From IMG/VR virus record IMGVR_UViG_3300035698_015472, positions 1 to 22,445 of that record: DNA of 22,445 nucleotides; one strand, written 5' to 3'. Positions within the stretch are counted from its first letter, which is position 1. Every line of letters begins with the position of its first letter. The translations under genes were made by a program, and so were the position numbers. Under the pieces are notes generated by a model. The model had not been told where the DNA came from. It saw only the letters and a list, made by a program, of their open reading frames with translations, and did no database searches. Below are positions 153 through 22,445 of this stretch, piece by piece. The DNA comes from a virus.

Positions 153-1073
153 ATGTCGAATTCATTCGCACAGTTAAAAAAGATGTCCAAAAAATCCCTC
201 AACACATTAGTAGAACAATCTGAAAAGATGAAGTCAGGCCCTCGAGGCGATGACGGCACTGAATGGTATCCCAAGGTTGACAAGAGTGGCAACGGCACGG
301 CCGTTATTCGTTTCTTGCCTGCTGCGCCCGGTGACGAGATTCCTTGGGTACGCATGTTCTCGCATGCATTCAAAGGCAAGGGTGGTTGGTATATCGACCT
401 TTGTGCTACAACGATCGAAGCCGATTGTCCTGTGTGCACACGCAACACAGAGCTTTGGGGAACGGGTAAGCCGGAAGACAAGGCTGTTGTGCAGGGAACG
501 GGTAAGGATAATCCTGGTGCTAAACGTCAGCTGAAATATGTTGCCAATGTGCTAATCATTTCCGATCCTTCTGATAAGTCAAACGAAGGCCGAGTGTTCA
601 AATACAAGTTCGGTCAGAAAATCTTTGACAAGGTTCAAGATGCGATGGCGCCTGAGTTTGAGGGTGATGAGCCAATCAACCCATTCGACTTTTGGGCTGG
701 TGCAAACCTTCGCTTGAAGATTCGTAACTTGGATGGCTATCGCAACTACAATAGTTCCGTGTTCGAAGCACCTTCTGCAGTGTCGGAAGACGACGAGGAG
801 TTGAAGAAGATTTGGGAAAGCCAGTACTCGCTTAGCGAGCTGATCGCACCTGACAAGTTCAAGACATTCGCCGAAGCCAAAGCTCGTTTGAATCGGATCA
901 CTGGAGCAGCCGCTCCTGCAACGACTGTTGAAGATCAGATGCAGGCGCCTGAGAGTTCACCGATGGCAGACGAAACTGCTACCGGAACAGCGGTCGAAGA
1001 AACACCGCCTTGGTCTGACGACGATGACGATGGAATGAAAGCGTTCCAGGAACTAGCAGACCAGGCTGGCTAA
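153..1073 (+). CDS. 32: Single-stranded DNA-binding protein gp32
   Basis: This is the phage ssDNA-binding protein, which coats single-stranded DNA during replication, recombination and repair and recruits partner proteins. The 306 residues have the three parts of T4 gp32 (301 aa). There is a basic N-terminus (KK near 9-15) for cooperative self-binding. The OB-fold core carries a zinc site with His71, Cys84, Cys92 and Cys95; the spacing H-x12-C-x7-C-x2-C is close to T4's H-x12-C-x9-C-x2-C. A very acidic tail (WSDDDDD near 287-293) is used in T4 to contact partners. The start is supported by AGGAGA 5 bases upstream. It is convergent with the gp29-like gene and separated from it by a hairpin. 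It is probably autoregulated through its leader. Confidence 0.95.
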   Translation: MSNSFAQLKKMSKKSLNTLVEQSEKMKSGPRGDDGTEWYPKVDKSGNGTAVIRFLPAAPGDEIPWVRMFSHAFKGKGGWYIDLCATTIEADCPVCTRNTELWGTGKPEDKAVVQGTGKDNPGAKRQLKYVANVLIISDPSDKSNEGRVFKYKFGQKIFDKVQDAMAPEFEGDEPINPFDFWAGANLRLKIRNLDGYRNYNSSVFEAPSAVSEDDEELKKIWESQYSLSELIAPDKFKTFAEAKARLNRITGAAAPATTVEDQMQAPESSPMADETATGTAVEETPPWSDDDDDGMKAFQELADQAG

Positions 1074-10367: not shown

Positions 10368-12224
10368 ATGCCCGCCAATAACGTTGTTAATGTATCGGAG
10401 ATTGATTTCGATACGCTAAAAGATAGTCTCAAAGCCTTCCTGAGCAATCAGGACGACTTCACTGACTATGACTTTGAGGGTAGCGCAATGGCTACTCTCA
10501 TTGATGTATTAGCTTATAACACTCACATGATCAGCTACTACACCAACGTTGTTGGCAACGAGATGTTCCTAGATAGTGCTCAACTTCGCAACAGCGTAGT
10601 TAGTCGAGCAAAGTCGCTAGGATATACTCCTGTTAGCTCTAGAGGTGCTTCGGCCAACATCAACGTGACGATCGTTCCGTCAGATAGTCCCGCTAGCATC
10701 ACAATTCCTAGAGCAACAACATGGACATCTACTATCGACAGCTCTACATACAACTTCATCACACCACAAGAGTATGTGATAACACCAGACGCTGACGGCG
10801 TGTATCAGGATGTGATTACGATCAAGCAGGGATTGGCGATGAATCATCGTTGGACTGTGTCCGCTGTAACCAATCAAAGATATGTTATTCCTAACCCAAG
10901 TATCGACACAACATCGTTTATCGTTAATGTCCAAGCAGGTGCATCTAACTCGTCAGTGACTTCGTTCAAATTAGCTGATGATATAAACGACGTGATGGGT
11001 AACACAGCGTCATACTTCCTGTTCGAAAACGAGGATGGCAAATATGAGCTGCAGTTCGGTGATGGCAATATAGGTAAGGCGCTTACACCAGGTAACATTG
11101 TCGTGCTTGATTACTGCATCGTAGCAGGGACAGACACAAATGGCGCCAACAACTTTATAGACCCATCAGACTTGGGCGGGTATTCCAACTTCTCAACTTC
11201 AGTAGTCGTGGCTGCTACGCGTGGATCCAATGCAGAGACAATCGACTCGATCAAATTCAATGCACCCAAGCACTATGCTGCTCAGAACAGAGCAGTGGTT
11301 GCTGATGATTACAAGCGTATCATTCTAAGAGACAACCCAGACATCCAGTCATTGAACATATGGGGTGGTCAGGACAACGTGCCACCACAGTATGGTAAGG
11401 TGTTCATCAGCGCAAAGCCGGCATCGAGTTCAGTTCTATCGCCGGACCGCAAGGCCGACATCCTCAATCAGCTGGTAAAGTACAACACAATGGCAGTCAC
11501 GCCGGAGTTTGTCGACGCAACTTACCTGTATGTCGTTCCAACTATCACCACTAGATACGACAAAATAGCCACATCTCTCTCAGCAACAGCCATCGCCGAC
11601 AAAGTATCCGCGGCCGTGATCAACTATGAGACGACGAAGTTGGGTGTATTTGGTACTAAGTTCCGCTATAGCCAGTTTCTTCGCGCGATTGATGACACAG
11701 ACAATAGCGTAGTAGGTAGCTTAGTATCAATTAAAATGCAAAAGCGATTCGTACCAAACACAGCTACTGCTACAACATACACATTGGTATACAACAACTC
11801 GTTCGACCATCCACATGCAGGCCATGCTGATGTTCTATCGAGCTCGTCGTTTACGTATGCAGGCCGCACCGGTTGCTTCCTAGATGACAATGGATACGGC
11901 ATTGTTAGCATATATTACATCGATACCAACCTGAATCGATCATACGTCAATACTGATGTTGGCACTATCAACTACGCTACAGGCACGATTGTACTAAATT
12001 CGCTGTTAATCACAGCATATGCCGGAAACGAGCTCGCGGTAAATGGAGCGCCTGAAAAAAACGACGTTTTTTCCACTACTAACCAAGTGGTGTTGATTGC
12101 CGATGCATCGATCAAAATAGTCGATGATGCATCAGATGTGCTAGAAACGCAGGTTAACACAGTAACGACATCCGGTGAGACGACGACAACCCTATCAACT
12201 GGCGTTACGAGTGTAATCTATTAA
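10368..12224 (+). CDS. 6: Baseplate wedge subunit gp6
   Basis: gp6 forms the continuous inner ring of the T4 baseplate and belongs to the baseplate J-like family. This 618-aa protein (T4: 660 aa) begins with the family signature. It contains FDTLKDSLKAFLSNQ, then the YDFEGSAMATLIDVLAYNTH segment and SVVSRAKSLGYTPVSSRGA (about 70-90). The middle contains the J-domain segment RAVVADDYKRIIL (about 310-322) with a following NIWGGQD. The C-terminus is beta-rich. The start lies 5 bases after the preceding gene; AGAAGG upstream is the likely ribosome-binding site. Its stop overlaps the next start (TAATG). Confidence 0.9.
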   Translation: MPANNVVNVSEIDFDTLKDSLKAFLSNQDDFTDYDFEGSAMATLIDVLAYNTHMISYYTNVVGNEMFLDSAQLRNSVVSRAKSLGYTPVSSRGASANINVTIVPSDSPASITIPRATTWTSTIDSSTYNFITPQEYVITPDADGVYQDVITIKQGLAMNHRWTVSAVTNQRYVIPNPSIDTTSFIVNVQAGASNSSVTSFKLADDINDVMGNTASYFLFENEDGKYELQFGDGNIGKALTPGNIVVLDYCIVAGTDTNGANNFIDPSDLGGYSNFSTSVVVAATRGSNAETIDSIKFNAPKHYAAQNRAVVADDYKRIILRDNPDIQSLNIWGGQDNVPPQYGKVFISAKPASSSVLSPDRKADILNQLVKYNTMAVTPEFVDATYLYVVPTITTRYDKIATSLSATAIADKVSAAVINYETTKLGVFGTKFRYSQFLRAIDDTDNSVVGSLVSIKMQKRFVPNTATATTYTLVYNNSFDHPHAGHADVLSSSSFTYAGRTGCFLDDNGYGIVSIYYIDTNLNRSYVNTDVGTINYATGTIVLNSLLITAYAGNELAVNGAPEKNDVFSTTNQVVLIADASIKIVDDASDVLETQVNTVTTSGETTTTLSTGVTSVIY

Positions 12225-15200
12225 TGTCTACAAACAACAAAATATCAGCATTAATCAATGATCAGCTGCCTGATTTCATTGCCAGTGAGGCTCCTCAGTT
12301 TGCGAGCTTCATTAAAGGCTATTATCAGTGGATGGAAGAGAGCGGCAACGTACTCGACCAAAACAATCAGCTGTTATCGTACAAAGACATTGATGACACG
12401 ATCGATGAATATGTTGATTGGATCCTTAACGAAATAGCTCCATCGATGGCCATTGATACAATGGCTGACCGACGTTTGATTGCCAAGCACGTAATTGATC
12501 TATGGCAGTCAAGAGGGTCAGAGACTAGCTACCGTATGCTGTTCAGAATGTTGTTCGGCGAAGAGGTTGAGTTCTATTACCCTCGTGAAGACATGTTGCG
12601 TGTATCTGATGGGCGATGGTTGGTTGAAAACAGTCTTCGTATCACTAAAGGGTTGGGCGATCTGACTGGTTTAGGTGGATTGCTTATTACTGGAGCAGAC
12701 AGTGGTGCAACAGCTAGAGTTGTTAAGATTCAGGCGACCAATGAACAGGGTATTGATAGTACTGAGCTGTTTATATCTAATATTGCAGGCACGTTCGCTG
12801 ATGGTGAACTGATATCTAATGATGATGGAGACATCAATGGCCGGATCATCAATACGATCGGGCCATTGTCTGGTGGCACTGCTGTTGATGGGGGTGCAGG
12901 CTATAATACTGGAGATATAGTCAATGTGGTGTCTGCCGGCGGCCAGCTGGGTCAACTAACAGTTGCTGCTACAACTGACTCGAGTGCACTTACATTTGCT
13001 ATTGCCAATGGTGGATCTGGGTATGTGGTTGGGTCGACTGTTGATATTGGTGGTGTGGGTACTGGAGCAAGCTTCGCTGTAGATTCAATTTCCAGCATAG
13101 AGACGCTGCAGATCAGCACTGAGAAGATCGCTCCTATGCTGAATGTTGCTCTAAACGCTGGTATTACGTTTGTGTCTACGGGAGCTAATACTGCAGATGT
13201 GTCGGCTAATATGGCTGCAGCTAATATCTCTAGCACAATCGCTACATCTCTATCAACGACAGATATTACTGCAGGTGAAATAGCTACAATAAGTATCTCC
13301 AGCCATGGGTATGGGTATGACGCACTGCCACCCGTAACTGTGATCAATGCAAATGTTGCTGGCCAGCTATTTGCTGATGGATCGGGTGGCATCAAAGGCC
13401 GCAACGCCACCATCACACCATCACATCTATCTGGATCAGTTACCTCATTCAATGCCATATTCGATGCGCGCGGCTCAGCATATAATAAGCTAAATCCTGC
13501 ATCGTTCATCAACACAACTAGAGTCGTTACTGCCAATGCTAGCGGCTTTCCTCTAGTCACTGGTATTGTTGAGTATCCAGGCAAGTATACTGACACAAAG
13601 GGCTGGATTAGTTGGAACAATCGTCTGCAGGATAACGACTACTACCAGGTATTCAGCTATGCCATCCGTAGTGATGTTGCAGTTAATGCTTATAGAGACC
13701 TGGTTACACGTCTATTGCATCCTGCTGGCACTAAGATGTTCGGCCACTATATCGTTAAGAGCAATGCTGATGTCGAGCCATCGATTGTTAGCACAGGAGG
13801 TGGCAACGAATATCAGGTGCAGATGCATTTAACTGTCGCTCCTACAGCAGCATCAGCCGATTCTCTTATCAATGAGTATGTGCTGGCCGCTGGTACTATC
13901 AGCATCAGCAATAGCGAGATCATGGGGCAATACCAGTGGCCACGTGAGAATCTGATTAGATACAGCGAACGATTTGATGTAACGGGTGCAAATAATCAGT
14001 GGAGCATGTCGGGTGGCACAGTGTCGTCCAACACATCAATAGCACCAGATGGCACATTGACGGCCGATACATATACTCACACAGATGCGGCGCCCGCTTT
14101 CATGTTTCAATATGAAATTGCAGCCAAAGCTAACACAGATTATATATTGACCTTTAACGCCAAGTATACTGCTAATGGATCAGCTAACGTCACTGTGCTG
14201 CCAGAGTTTAGAGATGATGCCGGGGCGTATTTCTACAGTGGTGCTACCCATACAACACTGACATCTGGCTGGCAGAAGATCACCCGCACGGTCCGCACTG
14301 GCGCTGCATCGAAGGATCTTCGGGTGTATTTAACGAGAGGTAGTACTATAGCAAATGGGGATGTTGTTGCTTTCTGGGGTGCACAGCTACGAGCCGCTAA
14401 CACATCTGATTACTACGTTGCCACAACAGCAGAGCCAGTTAGAAGCTATCTTAGTTGGCCACTAGAGAATTGGCACAGCCACTCTGCGGCCAACACATCA
14501 ACGTGGTCCAGCACCAATCTAACGCTGGTTGCAAACAACGTAGCCGCACCTAGTGGTACGCTGACAGGAACAAAATACACATCCACTGGATCCACCGGTG
14601 CACGTACCGGCCCGTTGAGCGCAACACTACCTGTCATCGGACAGTATTTGATAACTGGCTGGTTCCAGCCAAATACTGCGCCCGTCGGTGTGTCAAGTGT
14701 TACGTTTGCTACAGATATGGTAACGACTGCTGGCACACCATATCTGGAAGATACAGCTGACGGCGGATGGTTTAAATATACATTGCCAGTGGAAGTTACA
14801 GCTAATACAGGTACATTCTTCGTACCTCTATACTACCCTGTGTCCAATGGGTTCACAAGTCAAACTGTTGGTCATACTGGCGTCATCGCTGACTTACAGA
14901 TGCGTAGAGCCAACACGTCTGTTGAATTCATCGCGACGACTGGATCTATTATAACAAATGGACCCAACACAGGTGACTTCTTCCCGCTGACGCTCAATCA
15001 ACTAGAGATCGCCACTGCTGATGACTTTGCAGCGCGCAAGTTCGTTCGTGGTGAAGGTACGACATTTGATTCAATTGCTAATGGCACATTGATGCTAGTA
15101 ATAGACAACTGGGGTAATGCTGCAAACAGCTGGCATTATGCAAATCAGGTCAGCAGCAACACGACTCTGACTCTGTCTACGGGATATGGAAGCAACACGC

Positions 15201-15241
15201 TCGCAAACGGTTCATTCTATTATCTCGCAAACTCCTCATAA
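12224..15241 (+). CDS. 7: gp7-like baseplate wedge protein with two carbohydrate-binding-like modules
   Basis: The N-terminus (about 1-135: QLPDFIASEAPQFASFIKGYYQW, FRMLFGEEVEFYYPREDMLR) is of a type I recall in marine T4-like phages at the gp7 position. Position after gp6 and length (1005 aa; T4 gp7 1032) support gp7. Residues about 140-470 are glycine-rich beta repeats with GGSGY/GGAGY turns. Residues about 568-735 and 738-907 are two jelly-roll-like modules, each with an aromatic start, a sandwich and an ending of the type LR-ANTS-x4-ATT. Such modules in tail proteins usually bind glycans, so it may combine wedge and host-contact roles. T4 gp7 lacks obvious copies of these modules. A fibre-type protein is the alternative. 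Confidence 0.6.
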   Translation: MSTNNKISALINDQLPDFIASEAPQFASFIKGYYQWMEESGNVLDQNNQLLSYKDIDDTIDEYVDWILNEIAPSMAIDTMADRRLIAKHVIDLWQSRGSETSYRMLFRMLFGEEVEFYYPREDMLRVSDGRWLVENSLRITKGLGDLTGLGGLLITGADSGATARVVKIQATNEQGIDSTELFISNIAGTFADGELISNDDGDINGRIINTIGPLSGGTAVDGGAGYNTGDIVNVVSAGGQLGQLTVAATTDSSALTFAIANGGSGYVVGSTVDIGGVGTGASFAVDSISSIETLQISTEKIAPMLNVALNAGITFVSTGANTADVSANMAAANISSTIATSLSTTDITAGEIATISISSHGYGYDALPPVTVINANVAGQLFADGSGGIKGRNATITPSHLSGSVTSFNAIFDARGSAYNKLNPASFINTTRVVTANASGFPLVTGIVEYPGKYTDTKGWISWNNRLQDNDYYQVFSYAIRSDVAVNAYRDLVTRLLHPAGTKMFGHYIVKSNADVEPSIVSTGGGNEYQVQMHLTVAPTAASADSLINEYVLAAGTISISNSEIMGQYQWPRENLIRYSERFDVTGANNQWSMSGGTVSSNTSIAPDGTLTADTYTHTDAAPAFMFQYEIAAKANTDYILTFNAKYTANGSANVTVLPEFRDDAGAYFYSGATHTTLTSGWQKITRTVRTGAASKDLRVYLTRGSTIANGDVVAFWGAQLRAANTSDYYVATTAEPVRSYLSWPLENWHSHSAANTSTWSSTNLTLVANNVAAPSGTLTGTKYTSTGSTGARTGPLSATLPVIGQYLITGWFQPNTAPVGVSSVTFATDMVTTAGTPYLEDTADGGWFKYTLPVEVTANTGTFFVPLYYPVSNGFTSQTVGHTGVIADLQMRRANTSVEFIATTGSIITNGPNTGDFFPLTLNQLEIATADDFAARKFVRGEGTTFDSIANGTLMLVIDNWGNAANSWHYANQVSSNTTLTLSTGYGSNTLANGSFYYLANSS

Positions 15242-15795: not shown

Positions 15796-15913
15796 CCAGC
15801 ACAGACGTGATATGGCGCGTCGCCGAAAGATTCAGGTGCGAGTTCAGTTTGTCGTAATCGGCATCATCCTGTTCGTCGCCGTCGTATCATTCATAGAAAC
15901 GGTCAACAACTGA
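15788..15913 (+). CDS. Membrane microprotein with basic N-terminus (41 aa)
   Basis: A strongly basic N-terminus (HRRDMARRRK, residues 5-14) is followed by one membrane segment (about 20-36, FVVIGIILFVAVV). The positive-inside rule predicts the N-terminus in the cytoplasm. The stop overlaps the start of the next gene (ATGA). Function unknown. Confidence 0.5.
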   Translation: MSSQHRRDMARRRKIQVRVQFVVIGIILFVAVVSFIETVNN

Positions 15914-16395
15914 TGAAGGTGATCAAACCACCCAACATCCTACTGCCAGATAGCACACATAAACTGTTTCTTGCCGGAAGCATTGAAATGGGGGCAGCAG
16001 AGGATTGGCAGGCTCGGGTAGAAGCAATACTGAGCGAGACATCGGTGACCATATACAACCCCCGCAGAGACGATTGGGACCCCAGCTGGAGCCAAGACCC
16101 AGACAATAAGAACCTCCGCGACCAGATCCTATGGGAGCTACAGGCCCTAGAGGAGGCTGATACAATTGCTATATATATTGATCCGGAAACGAAAAGCCCT
16201 ATCACTCTGTTGGAGCTTGGCCTCCACGCTCATACTGGTAAATTGATTGTGTTCTGTCCTCCTGGCTTTTACAGATATGCGAACATATACTGGACATGCG
16301 TTCATCACAATATATCGTTGACATGTGATTTCGATCACTGGATGATGCAGATAGTTGAGAGTATTCACAGCAAGCCGGCCTTCGATGACTTTTAA
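15913..16395 (+). CDS. Nucleoside 2-deoxyribosyltransferase-like protein
   Basis: The 160-aa protein matches the small deoxyribosyltransferase-like family common in phages. It has LFLAGSIEMGAAEDWQ (18-33) as the N-terminal loop. YNPRRDDWDPSW (48-59) follows, then WELQALEEADTIAIYID (74-90) and SPITLLELGLHA (95-106). Glu101 sits where the catalytic glutamate of the family lies. Characterised relatives move deoxyribose between bases, so a role in nucleotide salvage or base modification is plausible. Some members of the wider fold cut nucleotides for signalling, so the exact reaction is open. It is the first larger gene after the microprotein run and overlaps it. Confidence 0.8.
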   Translation: MKVIKPPNILLPDSTHKLFLAGSIEMGAAEDWQARVEAILSETSVTIYNPRRDDWDPSWSQDPDNKNLRDQILWELQALEEADTIAIYIDPETKSPITLLELGLHAHTGKLIVFCPPGFYRYANIYWTCVHHNISLTCDFDHWMMQIVESIHSKPAFDDF

Positions 16396-17081: not shown

Positions 17082-17282
17082 ATGAAAGACCTAATTAAAG
17101 CGTTGCAAATCTTCGTGAAATACGGGGAACATGAAACACATTGCGAGCATGACATACTATTGGTCTGCGGCAGCAGTCGCGAAGACGTCGGCTTGATCGA
17201 TATGGCGCTGTTGGAGGAACTAGGGTTCTCCTGGAGTGATGAATATGACAGCTGGGGATCATACAAATATGGGAGTTGCTAA
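17082..17282 (+). CDS. Small conserved phage protein (66 aa)
   Basis: The pattern MKDLIKALQIFVKYG, THCEHDILLVC, LEELGFSWSDEYDSWGSYKYGSC is shared, as I recall it, by a family of short phage and plasmid proteins without a known role. The THCEHD segment could bind a metal. Its TAA overlaps the ATG of the first YCCLGVL paralog, so the two are coupled. Confidence 0.7.
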   Translation: MKDLIKALQIFVKYGEHETHCEHDILLVCGSSREDVGLIDMALLEELGFSWSDEYDSWGSYKYGSC

Positions 17283-17644
17283 TGATTAAATTTACACAGC
17301 AGGTTAAAGATGACTGGGTCGCGGCACTTCGCTCCGGTCAGTACCAGCAGGCACATCACTGGATGCGTAAGGGCGACAGATATTGTTGTCTCGGTGTGCT
17401 GAAAGATATGCACCCAGCCATGGGGGTCAACTCGTCTGCAAAGTATTGCACTTATATGTCCAACGAAGGTGAAGCAACACTTGTTGAAGGGCTGCCGGTC
17501 AGTGTTCAGCATGATTTGGCTTTGATGAACGACTACAGCATCGAAACCACAGACCCTCAAACAGGCCGGACGACGTCCGATTACCAAAACAGCTTCGAGG
17601 ACATTGCATTGTTCATTGAAGCAACCATTCCAGCAGGAGAGTAA
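17282..17644 (+). CDS. YCCLGVL-family phage protein, paralog 1 (120 aa)
   Basis: The family pattern is an N-terminal VKDDWVAALRSGQYQQ helix, then YCCLGVL (34-40), a variable middle, VEGLP-x3-Q, and LMNDY with a closing FEDIALFIEATI helix. The function is unknown; the pair of cysteines in YCCLG is invariant in all four copies here. ATG 17282 overlaps the previous stop. This copy has the longest middle section. It is the first of four paralogs in about 1.7 kb. Confidence 0.75.
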   Translation: MIKFTQQVKDDWVAALRSGQYQQAHHWMRKGDRYCCLGVLKDMHPAMGVNSSAKYCTYMSNEGEATLVEGLPVSVQHDLALMNDYSIETTDPQTGRTTSDYQNSFEDIALFIEATIPAGE

Positions 17645-17645
17645 T

Positions 17646-17999
17646 ATGCTAAGATTTACACAAGAAGTTAAAGACAACTGGCTGAAAGCACTACGCGGCC
17701 GGCGGTTCAAGAAGGCAATGGGCACTCTACATACCTCCGAGGACAAGCCTCGCTACTGCTGCCTCGGTGTGCTGCAGGCGTTGTACCCTGAAGACCTGCC
17801 GGAATCAGACAATGGAGAGATGCTGCTCTCATCGAGCAGCATCGGCAACAAAGAACGCTCACGTGTATCGGGTTTAGGCCCGGTGGTTCAGGCAGCGCTC
17901 GCAGCTCGCAACGACGGGGATGGTGACCACAAGATTCACTCGTTCGGAGCGATTGCAAAGTACATTGAAAACAATGTGCCAGTAATGCCTGACAAATGA
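17646..17999 (+). CDS. YCCLGVL-family phage protein, paralog 2 (117 aa)
   Basis: It begins MLRFTQEVKDNWLKALRG and carries YCCLGVLQALYP (37-48). The C-terminal part is the most divergent of the four: VEGL is replaced by VSGLG, and MND by RND. ATG 17646 lies 2 bases after the stop of paralog 1, with CAGGAG just upstream. This divergence points to an older duplication. Confidence 0.75.
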   Translation: MLRFTQEVKDNWLKALRGRRFKKAMGTLHTSEDKPRYCCLGVLQALYPEDLPESDNGEMLLSSSSIGNKERSRVSGLGPVVQAALAARNDGDGDHKIHSFGAIAKYIENNVPVMPDK

Positions 18000-18262
18000 G
18001 CCCGCAAGCTTACAATCTGGGCCAGAAGTGGTTTTGGCCCAGATTTATATCAATGTTGCTGTACATTGCTATACTGATCAACAGCGGGTCGCTGGTTAAG
18101 TCATTCGAAGGGTCATATGGAAGCTTGATTGCATTTGTTGTTTCCAGTATATTGATCATAGGATTCATAGCAGCATTGTGGTCAACAGCATTCGGTTTCT
18201 GGATAGTACTGGACGTGGTTGTTGCCCGCACAAGGAGATATATCAAAGATGGCGAATGCTAG
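17996..18262 (+). CDS. Membrane protein (88 aa)
   Basis: The ATG overlaps the stop of paralog 2 (ATGA). Two clear hydrophobic segments are visible, about 16-31 (FISMLLYIAILINSG) and 43-76 (a long hydrophobic stretch that may cross the membrane once or twice), followed by a basic end (RTRRYIKDGEC). It overlaps the start of paralog 3. No family is recognised. Confidence 0.6.
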   Translation: MSPQAYNLGQKWFWPRFISMLLYIAILINSGSLVKSFEGSYGSLIAFVVSSILIIGFIAALWSTAFGFWIVLDVVVARTRRYIKDGEC

Positions 18263-18605
18263 TTTGAAATTCACCCAAGAAGTCAAGGATAGATGGACTG
18301 CAGCCCTCCGTAGTGGTAACTATGAACAATGTGCAAGAACGTTGAAACGCAACGCCGGCCACGATCATGTCGAGCCGGCATATTGCTGCCTGGGCGTGCT
18401 TGCTGAAATCAATAATCTGGAAGTCCAGTCATGGGCTGGGCTATTGGTCGTCGAGCCCATCGCGGCCGTCGGCGTCCGTCGGACATTAGTTGAAGGGCTG
18501 TCAATGGAAACCCAATCAATTCTCAGCGTGATGAACGATAGTAATGACCAAGATTTCAACCAGATCGCTGATTGGATCGAAAGAAGTGTAATGGTGGGAA
18601 CATGA
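18249..18605 (+). CDS. YCCLGVL-family phage protein, paralog 3 (118 aa)
   Basis: It begins MANASLKFTQEVKDRWTAAL and has YCCLGVLAEINN (about 43-54), VEGLSMETQ and a DFNQIADWIERS helix at the end. AGGAGAT lies ahead of ATG 18249. A 48-bp stretch of its N-terminal coding sequence is identical to paralog 4, while the rest has diverged. Its stop overlaps the paralog 4 start. Confidence 0.75.
   Translation: MANASLKFTQEVKDRWTAALRSGNYEQCARTLKRNAGHDHVEPAYCCLGVLAEINNLEVQSWAGLLVVEPIAAVGVRRTLVEGLSMETQSILSVMNDSNDQDFNQIADWIERSVMVGT
18269..18316 (+). repeat. 48-bp exact direct repeat, copy A (paralog 3)
   Basis: Begins ATTCACCCAAGAAGTC and ends CCGTAGTGG. It is identical to 18619-18666, exactly 350 bases downstream. 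Confidence 0.95.
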
Positions 18606-18940
18606 GCATTCAACTAACATTCACCCAAGAAGTCAAGGATAGATGGACTGCAGCCCTCCGTAGTGGGGAATACAAGCAATGCCATCAAATGCTGTCCGAC
18701 AAGACAAATGCTGGGCTGCCGAGGTATTGTTGCCTCGGTGTGCTACAGGCGCTGAACGACCTAACAGTAATTGGGTTTGGCACGCTGGCCGCAAAGGAAC
18801 CTGACGACTACGCTCGAACCACAATCGTCGAAGGTTTGTCGTTGGAAGATCAGAGTCTCCTGGCCATGATGAATGACGACGAGCACAAATCGTTCACACA
18901 GATATCCGACCACATTGATGGCAACATAAGTGCAGTATGA
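18602..18940 (+). CDS. YCCLGVL-family phage protein, paralog 4 (112 aa)
   Basis: The N-terminal TFTQEVKDRWTAALRSGEY is nearly the same as paralog 3. YCCLGVLQALND (41-52), VEGLSLEDQSLLAMMND and FTQISDHIDG follow. This is the most typical copy. ATG 18602 overlaps the stop of paralog 3 (ATGA), and its own stop overlaps the next microprotein. Confidence 0.75.
   Translation: MSIQLTFTQEVKDRWTAALRSGEYKQCHQMLSDKTNAGLPRYCCLGVLQALNDLTVIGFGTLAAKEPDDYARTTIVEGLSLEDQSLLAMMNDDEHKSFTQISDHIDGNISAV
18619..18666 (+). repeat. 48-bp exact direct repeat, copy B (paralog 4)
   Basis: Identical to 18269-18316. It encodes the same helix segment (FTQEVKDRWTAALRSG) in both genes, in the same frame. Confidence 0.95.
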
Positions 18941-20674: not shown

Positions 20675-20890
20675 ATGCTACACGTAACCGTTACGAACAC
20701 GAATTCTAACCTATTGAGATCGTTGACTTTAAATAGGCGAAAACCGACGAATGTTACCGAGGTAGATGCGGTACGATACATCATAGGGAAGCTGCTGAAT
20801 GCTGACTTCCATGACGTACACCTGCTGTACATACTCGAACTGACGGACGAACTGCCCCCGGACTTGGAACCAGACGACTACCCAGGCTAG
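20675..20890 (+). CDS. Small acidic-tailed protein (71 aa)
   Basis: GCAGGAG lies upstream of the ATG. The N-terminus is polar with a basic patch (LNRRK), a helix AVRYIIGKLLNAD follows, and the end (ELPPDLEPDDYPG) is proline- and acid-rich. Directly after its TAG the same frame continues for 28 more codons as LPEV/PPKP units, to a TAG at 20975. The gene may have lost a repetitive tail, or the repeats may have grown beside it. Not recognised. Confidence 0.55.
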   Translation: MLHVTVTNTNSNLLRSLTLNRRKPTNVTEVDAVRYIIGKLLNADFHDVHLLYILELTDELPPDLEPDDYPG

Positions 20891-21046
20891 CTGCCAGAAG
20901 TGCCGCCAAAACCCTTGCCAGAAGTGTTGCCAGAAGTGCCGCCAAAACCCTTGCCAGAAGTCTTGCCACAACTGTAGCCAAAACCCAAGTCAAAAGTTGG
21001 CTGAGAAGTTGGGTCAAAAGTAGGGTCAAAAGTTCAGTGAGAAGTT
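20891..21046 (+). repeat. Array of thirteen 12-bp repeats
   Basis: Units read TTGCCAGAAGTG or CCGCCAAAACCC in the first half and GGGTCAAAAGTT-like in the second. Units 2 and 5 are identical, as are 3 and 4, so expansion was recent. The first seven units read in the frame of the preceding gene as LPEV and PPKP. The array ends one base before the -35 of a strong promoter. Confidence 0.85.
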
Positions 21047-21047
21047 G

Positions 21048-21076
21048 TTGACTTCTGAACACATATCATGTATATT
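21048..21076 (+). promoter_or_regulatory. Strong sigma70-type promoter
   Basis: TTGACT (21048-21053), a 17-base spacer, and TATATT (21071-21076) each match 5 of 6 consensus bases. Transcription should start near 21083. AGAAGT and ACTTCT (21041-21046 / 21052-21057) form a dyad over the -35, a possible operator. Confidence 0.7.
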
Positions 21077-21111
21077 AAGGGAGTCGAAAGGATCTAGCCG
21101 AGGAGAACGTC

Positions 21112-21123
21112 ATGATGCTCTAA
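21112..21123 (+). CDS. Three-codon minigene (M-M-L-stop) with strong Shine-Dalgarno
   Basis: GAGGAG (21100-21105) lies 6 bases ahead of ATG ATG CTC TAA. Spacing and strength are ideal, but the frame stops after three codons. It may be a true minigene (such as lambda bar minigenes, which trap peptidyl-tRNA), a leader peptide, or the remnant of a gene start. Confidence 0.3.
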   Translation: MML

Positions 21124-21272
21124 TCTAGCTGCCAATTCAGGTATATAGGAAGAGAATGATAGTGAGACCAAGCTGACACTTTCGACAGGTCAGTGAGTTA
21201 TTGGCGCCCTTCATGGGAGGCCAAGCGGCCCCGGGTAGCCGATTCGTCGGAGCTCGGCCGAATGTCGCCAGG

Positions 21273-21302
21273 AACCGCCAGAAGTGAGATTCTGGCGGTT
21301 TT
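21273..21302 (+). terminator. Intrinsic terminator
   Basis: AACCGCCAGAA and TTCTGGCGGTT form a perfect 11-bp stem around the loop GTGAGA, and the 3' arm runs directly into TTTT. It is strong and of standard form. Confidence 0.85.
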
Positions 21303-21328
21303 CTGCCGTGTGCTGCTATACTGCTGAG

Positions 21329-21457
21329 CAGCATGGCTGCGTGCCGTATCATGGCAGGCAGGCCGCCTAGGCGGACCCCATCATGGCAGGCAGGATGGCT
21401 GGGCTGTTGGTCATATCATGGCAGACAGCATGGCTGCGTGCCGTATCATGGCAAACA
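21329..21457 (+). repeat. Four spaced copies of an ATCATGGCA repeat
   Basis: ATCATGGCA occurs at 21348, 21380, 21415 and 21445, spaced 32, 35 and 30 bases, each followed by a CAGGCAGG-like tail. A 28-bp block starting CAGCATGGCTGCGTGCC is exact at 21329-21356 and 21426-21453. CCGCCTAGGCGG (21363-21374) is a perfect palindrome between the first two copies. It is not a CRISPR: repeats are too short and spacers partly conserved. Confidence 0.8.
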
Positions 21458-21464
21458 GGATGGT

Positions 21465-21481
21465 AAAACCCGCAATCGGGT
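21465..21481 (-). terminator. Possible minus-strand terminator
   Basis: On the minus strand ACCCG-ATTG-CGGGT forms a short stem and is followed by TTTT. No gene is evident upstream on that strand, so its role is uncertain. The stem is only 5 bp. Confidence 0.35.
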
Positions 21482-21699
21482 GCTTTGGCGAAACCCCATA
21501 GCTCGCCGCCGTGTCCCGTTTGCATCTTGGCTGCGCAGGAGATTGTCAGATCGGGATGGTCTCGCTTCGTCCGTGCCTTCCGACTCACCCAATATCACAC
21601 ATTGCACATTCCGAGACAACAGCAAATTAAATTAAATATACCGTTGCCCCTCTATACGAATTATGATACATTGCGGGGGTCAACAAACGGAGAAATCAA

Positions 21700-21828
21700 A
21701 TGCGCGTTACCGAAGAAATCAAGCAGCAGATCAATGAGAAGCTGCAGCAGTCGATCGACCTCCGCGCCCGCGGCCTGCCGCCCATCTTCTCGACCGTGCC
21801 TCCGCGCGCCTCTAAAATCCTCATCTGA
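21700..21828 (+). CDS. Small GC-rich gene, unknown (42 aa)
   Basis: CGGAG lies 7-8 bases before the ATG. The product begins MRVTEEIKQQINEKLQQS, a likely helix, and ends in a proline-rich segment (PPIFSTVPPRASKILI). A TATGAT hexamer (21662-21667) may be its -10 element, without a clear -35. It has higher GC than the island upstream. Not recognised. Confidence 0.5.
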   Translation: MRVTEEIKQQINEKLQQSIDLRARGLPPIFSTVPPRASKILI

Positions 21829-21843
21829 AAAAGGAAACATACC

Positions 21844-22215
21844 ATGACTGCAACACCCGCAAAATTCTGGGCCGCAAAACACAACGACGCCGTGACCAAG
21901 CTCTGGGAGCACGTCCCGCTCGAGGGCCCCGTGCTCGACCCCGCCCGGCCCGCGCTTGAAGCTTGGCGCAATCTGAACTGCGCGTACTACGACGTGTACA
22001 ATAATGGCGCCTGCAACTGGGGCCACCGCCGCGCTAATATGGTCGCGGCCTGCAAATTTGTCAGCATGCCCGTCCCCAGCAAGAAGGCGCTTCTCGACGG
22101 CGCGTGGCAAGACAAAAGCGGCGCCTCCCCCGACGTTCTCGAAACCATCGCGGACGCCGTGTTTGTCCGCGCGCTGGCTGAAGCGTACCTGCTGGAAAAT
22201 GGAGCTGCCAAATGA
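21844..22215 (+). CDS. Unknown protein with YYDVYNNG motif (123 aa)
   Basis: AAAAAGGAAA precedes the ATG. The protein is soluble and helical, with NCAYYDVYNNGACN (about 45-58) and a C-terminal helix VFVRALAEAYLLENG. Short phage and plasmid proteins with a DVYNNG-type segment exist to my memory, but I know no function. Codons ending in C or G dominate (for example 46 of the 60 bases at 21901-21960 are G or C), unlike the structural genes. Its stop overlaps the next start (ATGA). Confidence 0.65.
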   Translation: MTATPAKFWAAKHNDAVTKLWEHVPLEGPVLDPARPALEAWRNLNCAYYDVYNNGACNWGHRRANMVAACKFVSMPVPSKKALLDGAWQDKSGASPDVLETIADAVFVRALAEAYLLENGAAK

Positions 22216-22319
22216 CCATCACACCCAACCGCGAAAAACTCTACCCGTCGCTCAACGGCATGGCGCAACTCGCCGTTGACGGCGTCGCCTCAAACCCGTG
22301 GCTGAAAGAGGGCGCCTAA
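22212..22319 (+). CDS. Small protein (35 aa)
   Basis: The start overlaps the previous stop (ATGA), and the TAA overlaps another ATG at 22319, whose frame closes after 12 codons. The product begins MTITPNREKLYPSL and ends NPWLKEGA. Unknown; supported mainly by coupling. Confidence 0.4.
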   Translation: MTITPNREKLYPSLNGMAQLAVDGVASNPWLKEGA

Positions 22320-22344
22320 TGGAATACGAACAGTTCCACATGAA

Positions 22345-22445
22345 ATGGCCCACCTGATTGATGGTAAAGTCAACCCGGCAGGACATGAAGGCGGCGCCAC
22401 AGCCGATCGGCACGGTCGGTTCCGGCGCATCAAACGCGACATACA
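22345..22445 (+). CDS. Possible partial gene at the window edge
   Basis: From ATG 22345 the frame is open to the end (33 codons), starting MAHLIDGKVNPAGHEGG. A second open frame starts at 22361. There is no clear ribosome-binding site for either. Which frame is coding needs the following sequence. Confidence 0.3.
   Translation, partial: MAHLIDGKVNPAGHEGGATADRHGRFRRIKRDI

Follow-up and report, generated by a model that had tools for sequence, protein, structure and literature searches.

The RNAs of bands C and D are located in the tRNA cluster of bacteriophage T4, and cyanophage S-PM2 is also a T4-like phage. Few small RNAs (sRNAs) of virulent T4-like phages have been described. The band C and D RNAs are small RNAs whose function had yet to be found as of 2016, and in the virulent Pseudomonas phage PAK_P3 sRNA1 and sRNA2, to which no proven function has been assigned, arise from gene-free gaps (PMC4933390). 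The CfrI RNA of S-PM2, with a length of ~225 nt, has been tabulated together with other phage sRNAs (PMC12197685). A further group, the RNA anti-CRISPRs (Racrs), consists of small non-coding RNAs of phages (PMC10651486).

The DNA analysed here, referred to as the window, is the whole of the 22,445-base IMG/VR virus record IMGVR_UViG_3300035698_015472 and is a 22.4-kb piece of a T4-like myovirus. It encodes a T4-type single-strand DNA-binding protein (Table 1) and T4-like baseplate genes, and T4-type late promoter motifs TATAAATA were found upstream of several structural genes. The product of the gene at 12224-15241 showed ~30% identity to baseplate wedge proteins of Stenotrophomonas phage DLP_6 and Caulobacter phage Cr30, and its homologue in Ochrobactrum phage OC is annotated as gp7-like; a gp6-like gene starts at 10373. 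Between 5522 and 20890 the main genes are directed rightward, those at 15.9-20.9 kb being small accessory genes. From 20,890 to ~21,700 the window is without genes, which is the largest gene-free gap noticed, and the candidate unit is situated in this gap. Four paralogous small proteins with the motif FTQEVKD.W...YCCLGVL are encoded in a row at 17276-18940, with one other small ORF interspersed; the one paralogue tested matched phrog_18067, a family of unknown function. The right end of the window (21480-22445) is GC-richer (~55% in 21-22 kb vs 47.5% overall), its small ORFs match no known family, and it is possibly a recent acquisition.

Table 1. Positions of the features in and around the candidate sRNA unit
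Feature	Position	Strand	Details
T4-type single-strand DNA-binding protein	153-1073		phrog_224
Nucleoside 2-deoxyribosyltransferase-like gene	15913-16395		Pfam PF15891, E 1e-35
Degenerate 12-nt tandem repeat array	20892-21047	+	units e.g. TGCCAGAAGTGC, CGCCAAAACCCT, GGTCAAAAGTTG; repeat search and TRF
Predicted sigma70-type promoter	21048-21076	+	TTGACT - 17 nt - TATATT; 10/12 consensus match
5' domain, bulged rod	21083-21186	+	104 nt; MFE -30.7 kcal/mol; MFE = centroid; z -2.62
Mini-ORF MML	21112-21123	+	ATG ATG CTC TAA, preceded by GAGGAG; in 5' domain
Mini-ORF MIVRPS	21156-21176	+	ATG ATA GTG AGA CCA AGC TGA, preceded by AGGAAG; in 5' domain
Middle segment, small hairpins	21188-21272	+	z -0.26
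TTCG hairpin	21239-21250	+	CCGA-TTCG-TCGG; pair probability 0.7-0.9
Predicted intrinsic terminator	21273-21303	+	AACCGCCAGAA-GTGAGA-TTCTGGCGGTT then TTC; perfect 11-bp stem
Four direct repeats of ~34 nt	21329-21459	+	non-coding, 3' of terminator; repeat search and TRF

A preliminary description of this DNA had proposed a self-contained sRNA with its own promoter and terminator. The promoter sequence claimed upstream of the unit is present, and transcription is predicted to start at 21083, 7 nt past the -10 box. Promoter matches of this quality are common (~2.8 expected per strand in the shuffled window), and taken alone the match at 21048-21076 is weak evidence for an active promoter. The claimed terminator was confirmed as a perfect stem; ~0.03 stems of this length are expected per strand. 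Its pair probability was 0.94-1.0 and the hairpin, at 21273-21300, stands in a TTTTC context. The consensus scan did not pick up this terminator, apparently because it needs 5 T within 8 bases past the maximally extended stem. A promoter matching at no fewer than 10/12 positions followed by a strong terminator at most 400 nt away was seen in only ~0.8% of shuffled strand-windows (a rough figure, one of 120 shuffles), so the pair is probably not due to chance; the shuffle controls were picked after the region had been seen, and significance is therefore overstated. At the level of sequence, a predicted promoter and an intrinsic terminator of its own enclose a non-coding stretch, the arrangement by which an intergenic (trans-acting) phage sRNA is recognised.

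The absence of a plausible gene was borne out, since all six frames were either interrupted or negative for phage codon usage. An antisense ORF of 71 aa (21137-21352) was rejected as a gene because it lacked a ribosome site and its codon score was negative. If TGA is read as Trp, a frame at 21156-21635 is open, as judged by eye; this was also rejected, as TGA ends other genes here and the frame is broken by the downstream repeats.

When the whole 224-nt stretch was folded, it gave -84.6 kcal/mol with z = -2.74, a z-score similar to those reached by fixed-grid windows within genes. The signal comes from the terminator together with the 5' domain, and the stability of the latter was equalled in 3 of 200 shuffles. 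This domain is closed by the long-range 8-bp pairing of the preliminary description, an exact helix of GTCGAAAG (21083-21090) with CTTTCGAC (21179-21186), whose first base coincides with the predicted transcription start. Some long-range pairing of 8 bp occurred in 14% of shuffles, but only 0.7% had one whose start was no more than 3 nt from the 5' end. The claim of three local hairpins adds little: the TTCG hairpin exists, but shuffled sequence folds as well as the middle segment does. The extra-stable cUUCGg tetraloop is closed by a C-G pair, whereas the TTCG loop found here is closed by a weak A-U pair.

On the basis of this anatomy, we regard the unit as an orphan intergenic sRNA of ~220 nt of a T4-like phage, with its own sigma70-type promoter and intrinsic terminator, a reading to which we give about an even chance. 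Virulent phages are known to make intergenic sRNAs (PAK_P3 sRNA1/2 and T4 band C/D; PMC4933390), which supports this reading, as do the lack of a coding frame and the absence of any tRNA or known RNA family. The sequence features are in place, a gene is missing and structure rises above the shuffled controls; transcription, timing, stability and function of the unit we infer from these. Host RNA polymerase would initiate at ~21083 from the sigma70-type (early-type) promoter and would halt at the intrinsic terminator at 21300-21303, and the first 104 nt of the transcript would form a rod concealing the 5' end. By analogy with other phage sRNAs, the RNA would most likely pair with mRNAs of the phage or of the host. 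When gene starts in the window were searched for antisense targets, none was significant (best z -1.4), which weighs against the sRNA reading; two matches were discarded as being at chance level by estimate, one of 10 nt where the gp6-like gene starts and one of 11 nt at 16215.

The main rival holds that only the terminator is real and ends the accessory operon at 15.9-20.9 kb, the promoter-like site and the 5' fold being chance or decayed intergenic sequence. The rightward genes up to 20890 run towards this terminator, no other strong terminator was found between 20890 and 21273, and the terminator probably does also end the operon and stop its read-through, as the sRNA reading likewise assumes. 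Besides the frequency of such promoter matches, the ordinary folding of the body once the terminator is removed (z = -1.07) is consistent with this rival. It is opposed by the rarity of the promoter-terminator tandem among shuffles and by a 5' domain of unusual stability whose first base is the predicted start site, and we consider it a real possibility though a rather doubtful one. The claim of a self-contained sRNA is partly supported: the anatomy fits, with the promoter-terminator pair and the 5' domain exceeding shuffles, but the terminator is also the expected 3' end of the upstream operon.

Two mini-ORFs in the 5' domain bear on a second rival, in which the unit is a 5' leader with conditional termination (an attenuator), perhaps sensed via MML and MIVRPS and controlling the genes from 21700 on. 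The order of promoter, Shine-Dalgarno (SD)-preceded mini-ORFs and terminator would suit such a leader, and the 4 SD-ATG matches (overlapping ones counted) were reached in 0.9% of shuffles. MML is possibly a leader minigene and may be due to chance, and MIVRPS may likewise be chance or a leader device. An attenuating terminator is expected just upstream of the gene it controls, but here the next gene lies 400 nt past the terminator with a repeat block between them; that gene also has promoter-like sequence of its own upstream, recognised by eye and absent from the scan list, and the MFE and centroid folds displayed no antiterminator alternative. We regard an attenuator as improbable.

The unit is flanked by two repeat arrays. 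The 12-nt array adjoins the -35 box, with a small gene on its other side, and is possibly a control region. On the minus strand over this array one frame is open (20781-21062) and would encode a leucine-rich LLxx repeat, and the plus frame contains stops. Three of the 5 copies of the array unit GCCAGAAGTG (0.08 expected) belong to the array; the terminator has one in its 5' arm and an 11-bp hairpin at 18014-18045 has the other. That perfect hairpin, AATCTGGGCCA-GAAGTGGTTT-TGGCCCAGATT, is just within the small ORF 17996-18262 and has GCCAGAAGTG and (reversed) GCCAAAACC in common with the 12-nt repeats. The four repeats beyond the terminator share ATCATGGCA at a spacing of 32, 35 and 30 nt. A role at the DNA level, as a replication origin or another control region whose transcript would serve as primer or R-loop RNA and whose flanking repeats would bind proteins, would fit two arrays in the largest gene-free gap, but it is very unlikely, as no AT-rich unwinding element directly adjoins the RNA, there is no relative whose origin has been mapped and no replication gene was identified beside the unit. 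Still more conjectural, and highly improbable, is an undescribed class of phage sRNA with a 104-nt rod, in which the adjoining 12-nt array would control the promoter and the terminator arm (TTCTGGC), complementary to GCCAGAA units in the 3' end of the upstream operon, would let operon read-through and sRNA regulate each other.

In agreement with the preliminary description, an Rfam search of the window gave no family at the gathering cut-off and no riboswitch; relaxed limits added a single chance match (E 9.3). No similar DNA was detected by blastn among 50,697 phage records, and nothing past chance among 72,556 plasmids. Exact and structural pattern searches of IMG/VR yielded no homologue of the unit, the matches L020-L030 being rejected since they had only the searched motif in common, and nhmmer together with a genome-contig scan gave no match in relatives. 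The proposed covariance model search in related phages did not reach beyond the unit, for the single-sequence model matched only itself (21 sources; 11 records including the window's own). Neighbour-protein scans found no close relative of the phage (best ~42% along the gp6-like gene), and the absence of the RNA elsewhere, though it weighs against the sRNA reading, therefore says little. As a single sequence without relatives, the unit resolves no open question yet.

Compared with the described systems, the orphan sRNA proposed here differs from Racrs, which have a CRISPR-repeat mimic, whereas no CRISPR-DR family of Rfam (Rfam repeat types only) matched at E <= 10. CfrI of S-PM2 is similar in size, but it is cis-encoded at psbA and the candidate has no evident overlap with a gene on the opposite strand. 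PAK_P3 sRNA1 and sRNA2, likened here by description, are also small RNAs from gene-free gaps with no proven function; they are ~100 nt long and shown by RNA-seq, whereas the candidate is ~220 nt and predicted. The band C and D RNAs were detected experimentally, whereas the candidate is predicted and a tRNA/tmRNA scan of its window found none; like the candidate, they are small, belong to a T4-like phage and have no assigned function. If transcribed, the unit would add one more sRNA of T4-like phages to these, one whose promoter has an unusual repeat array next to it.
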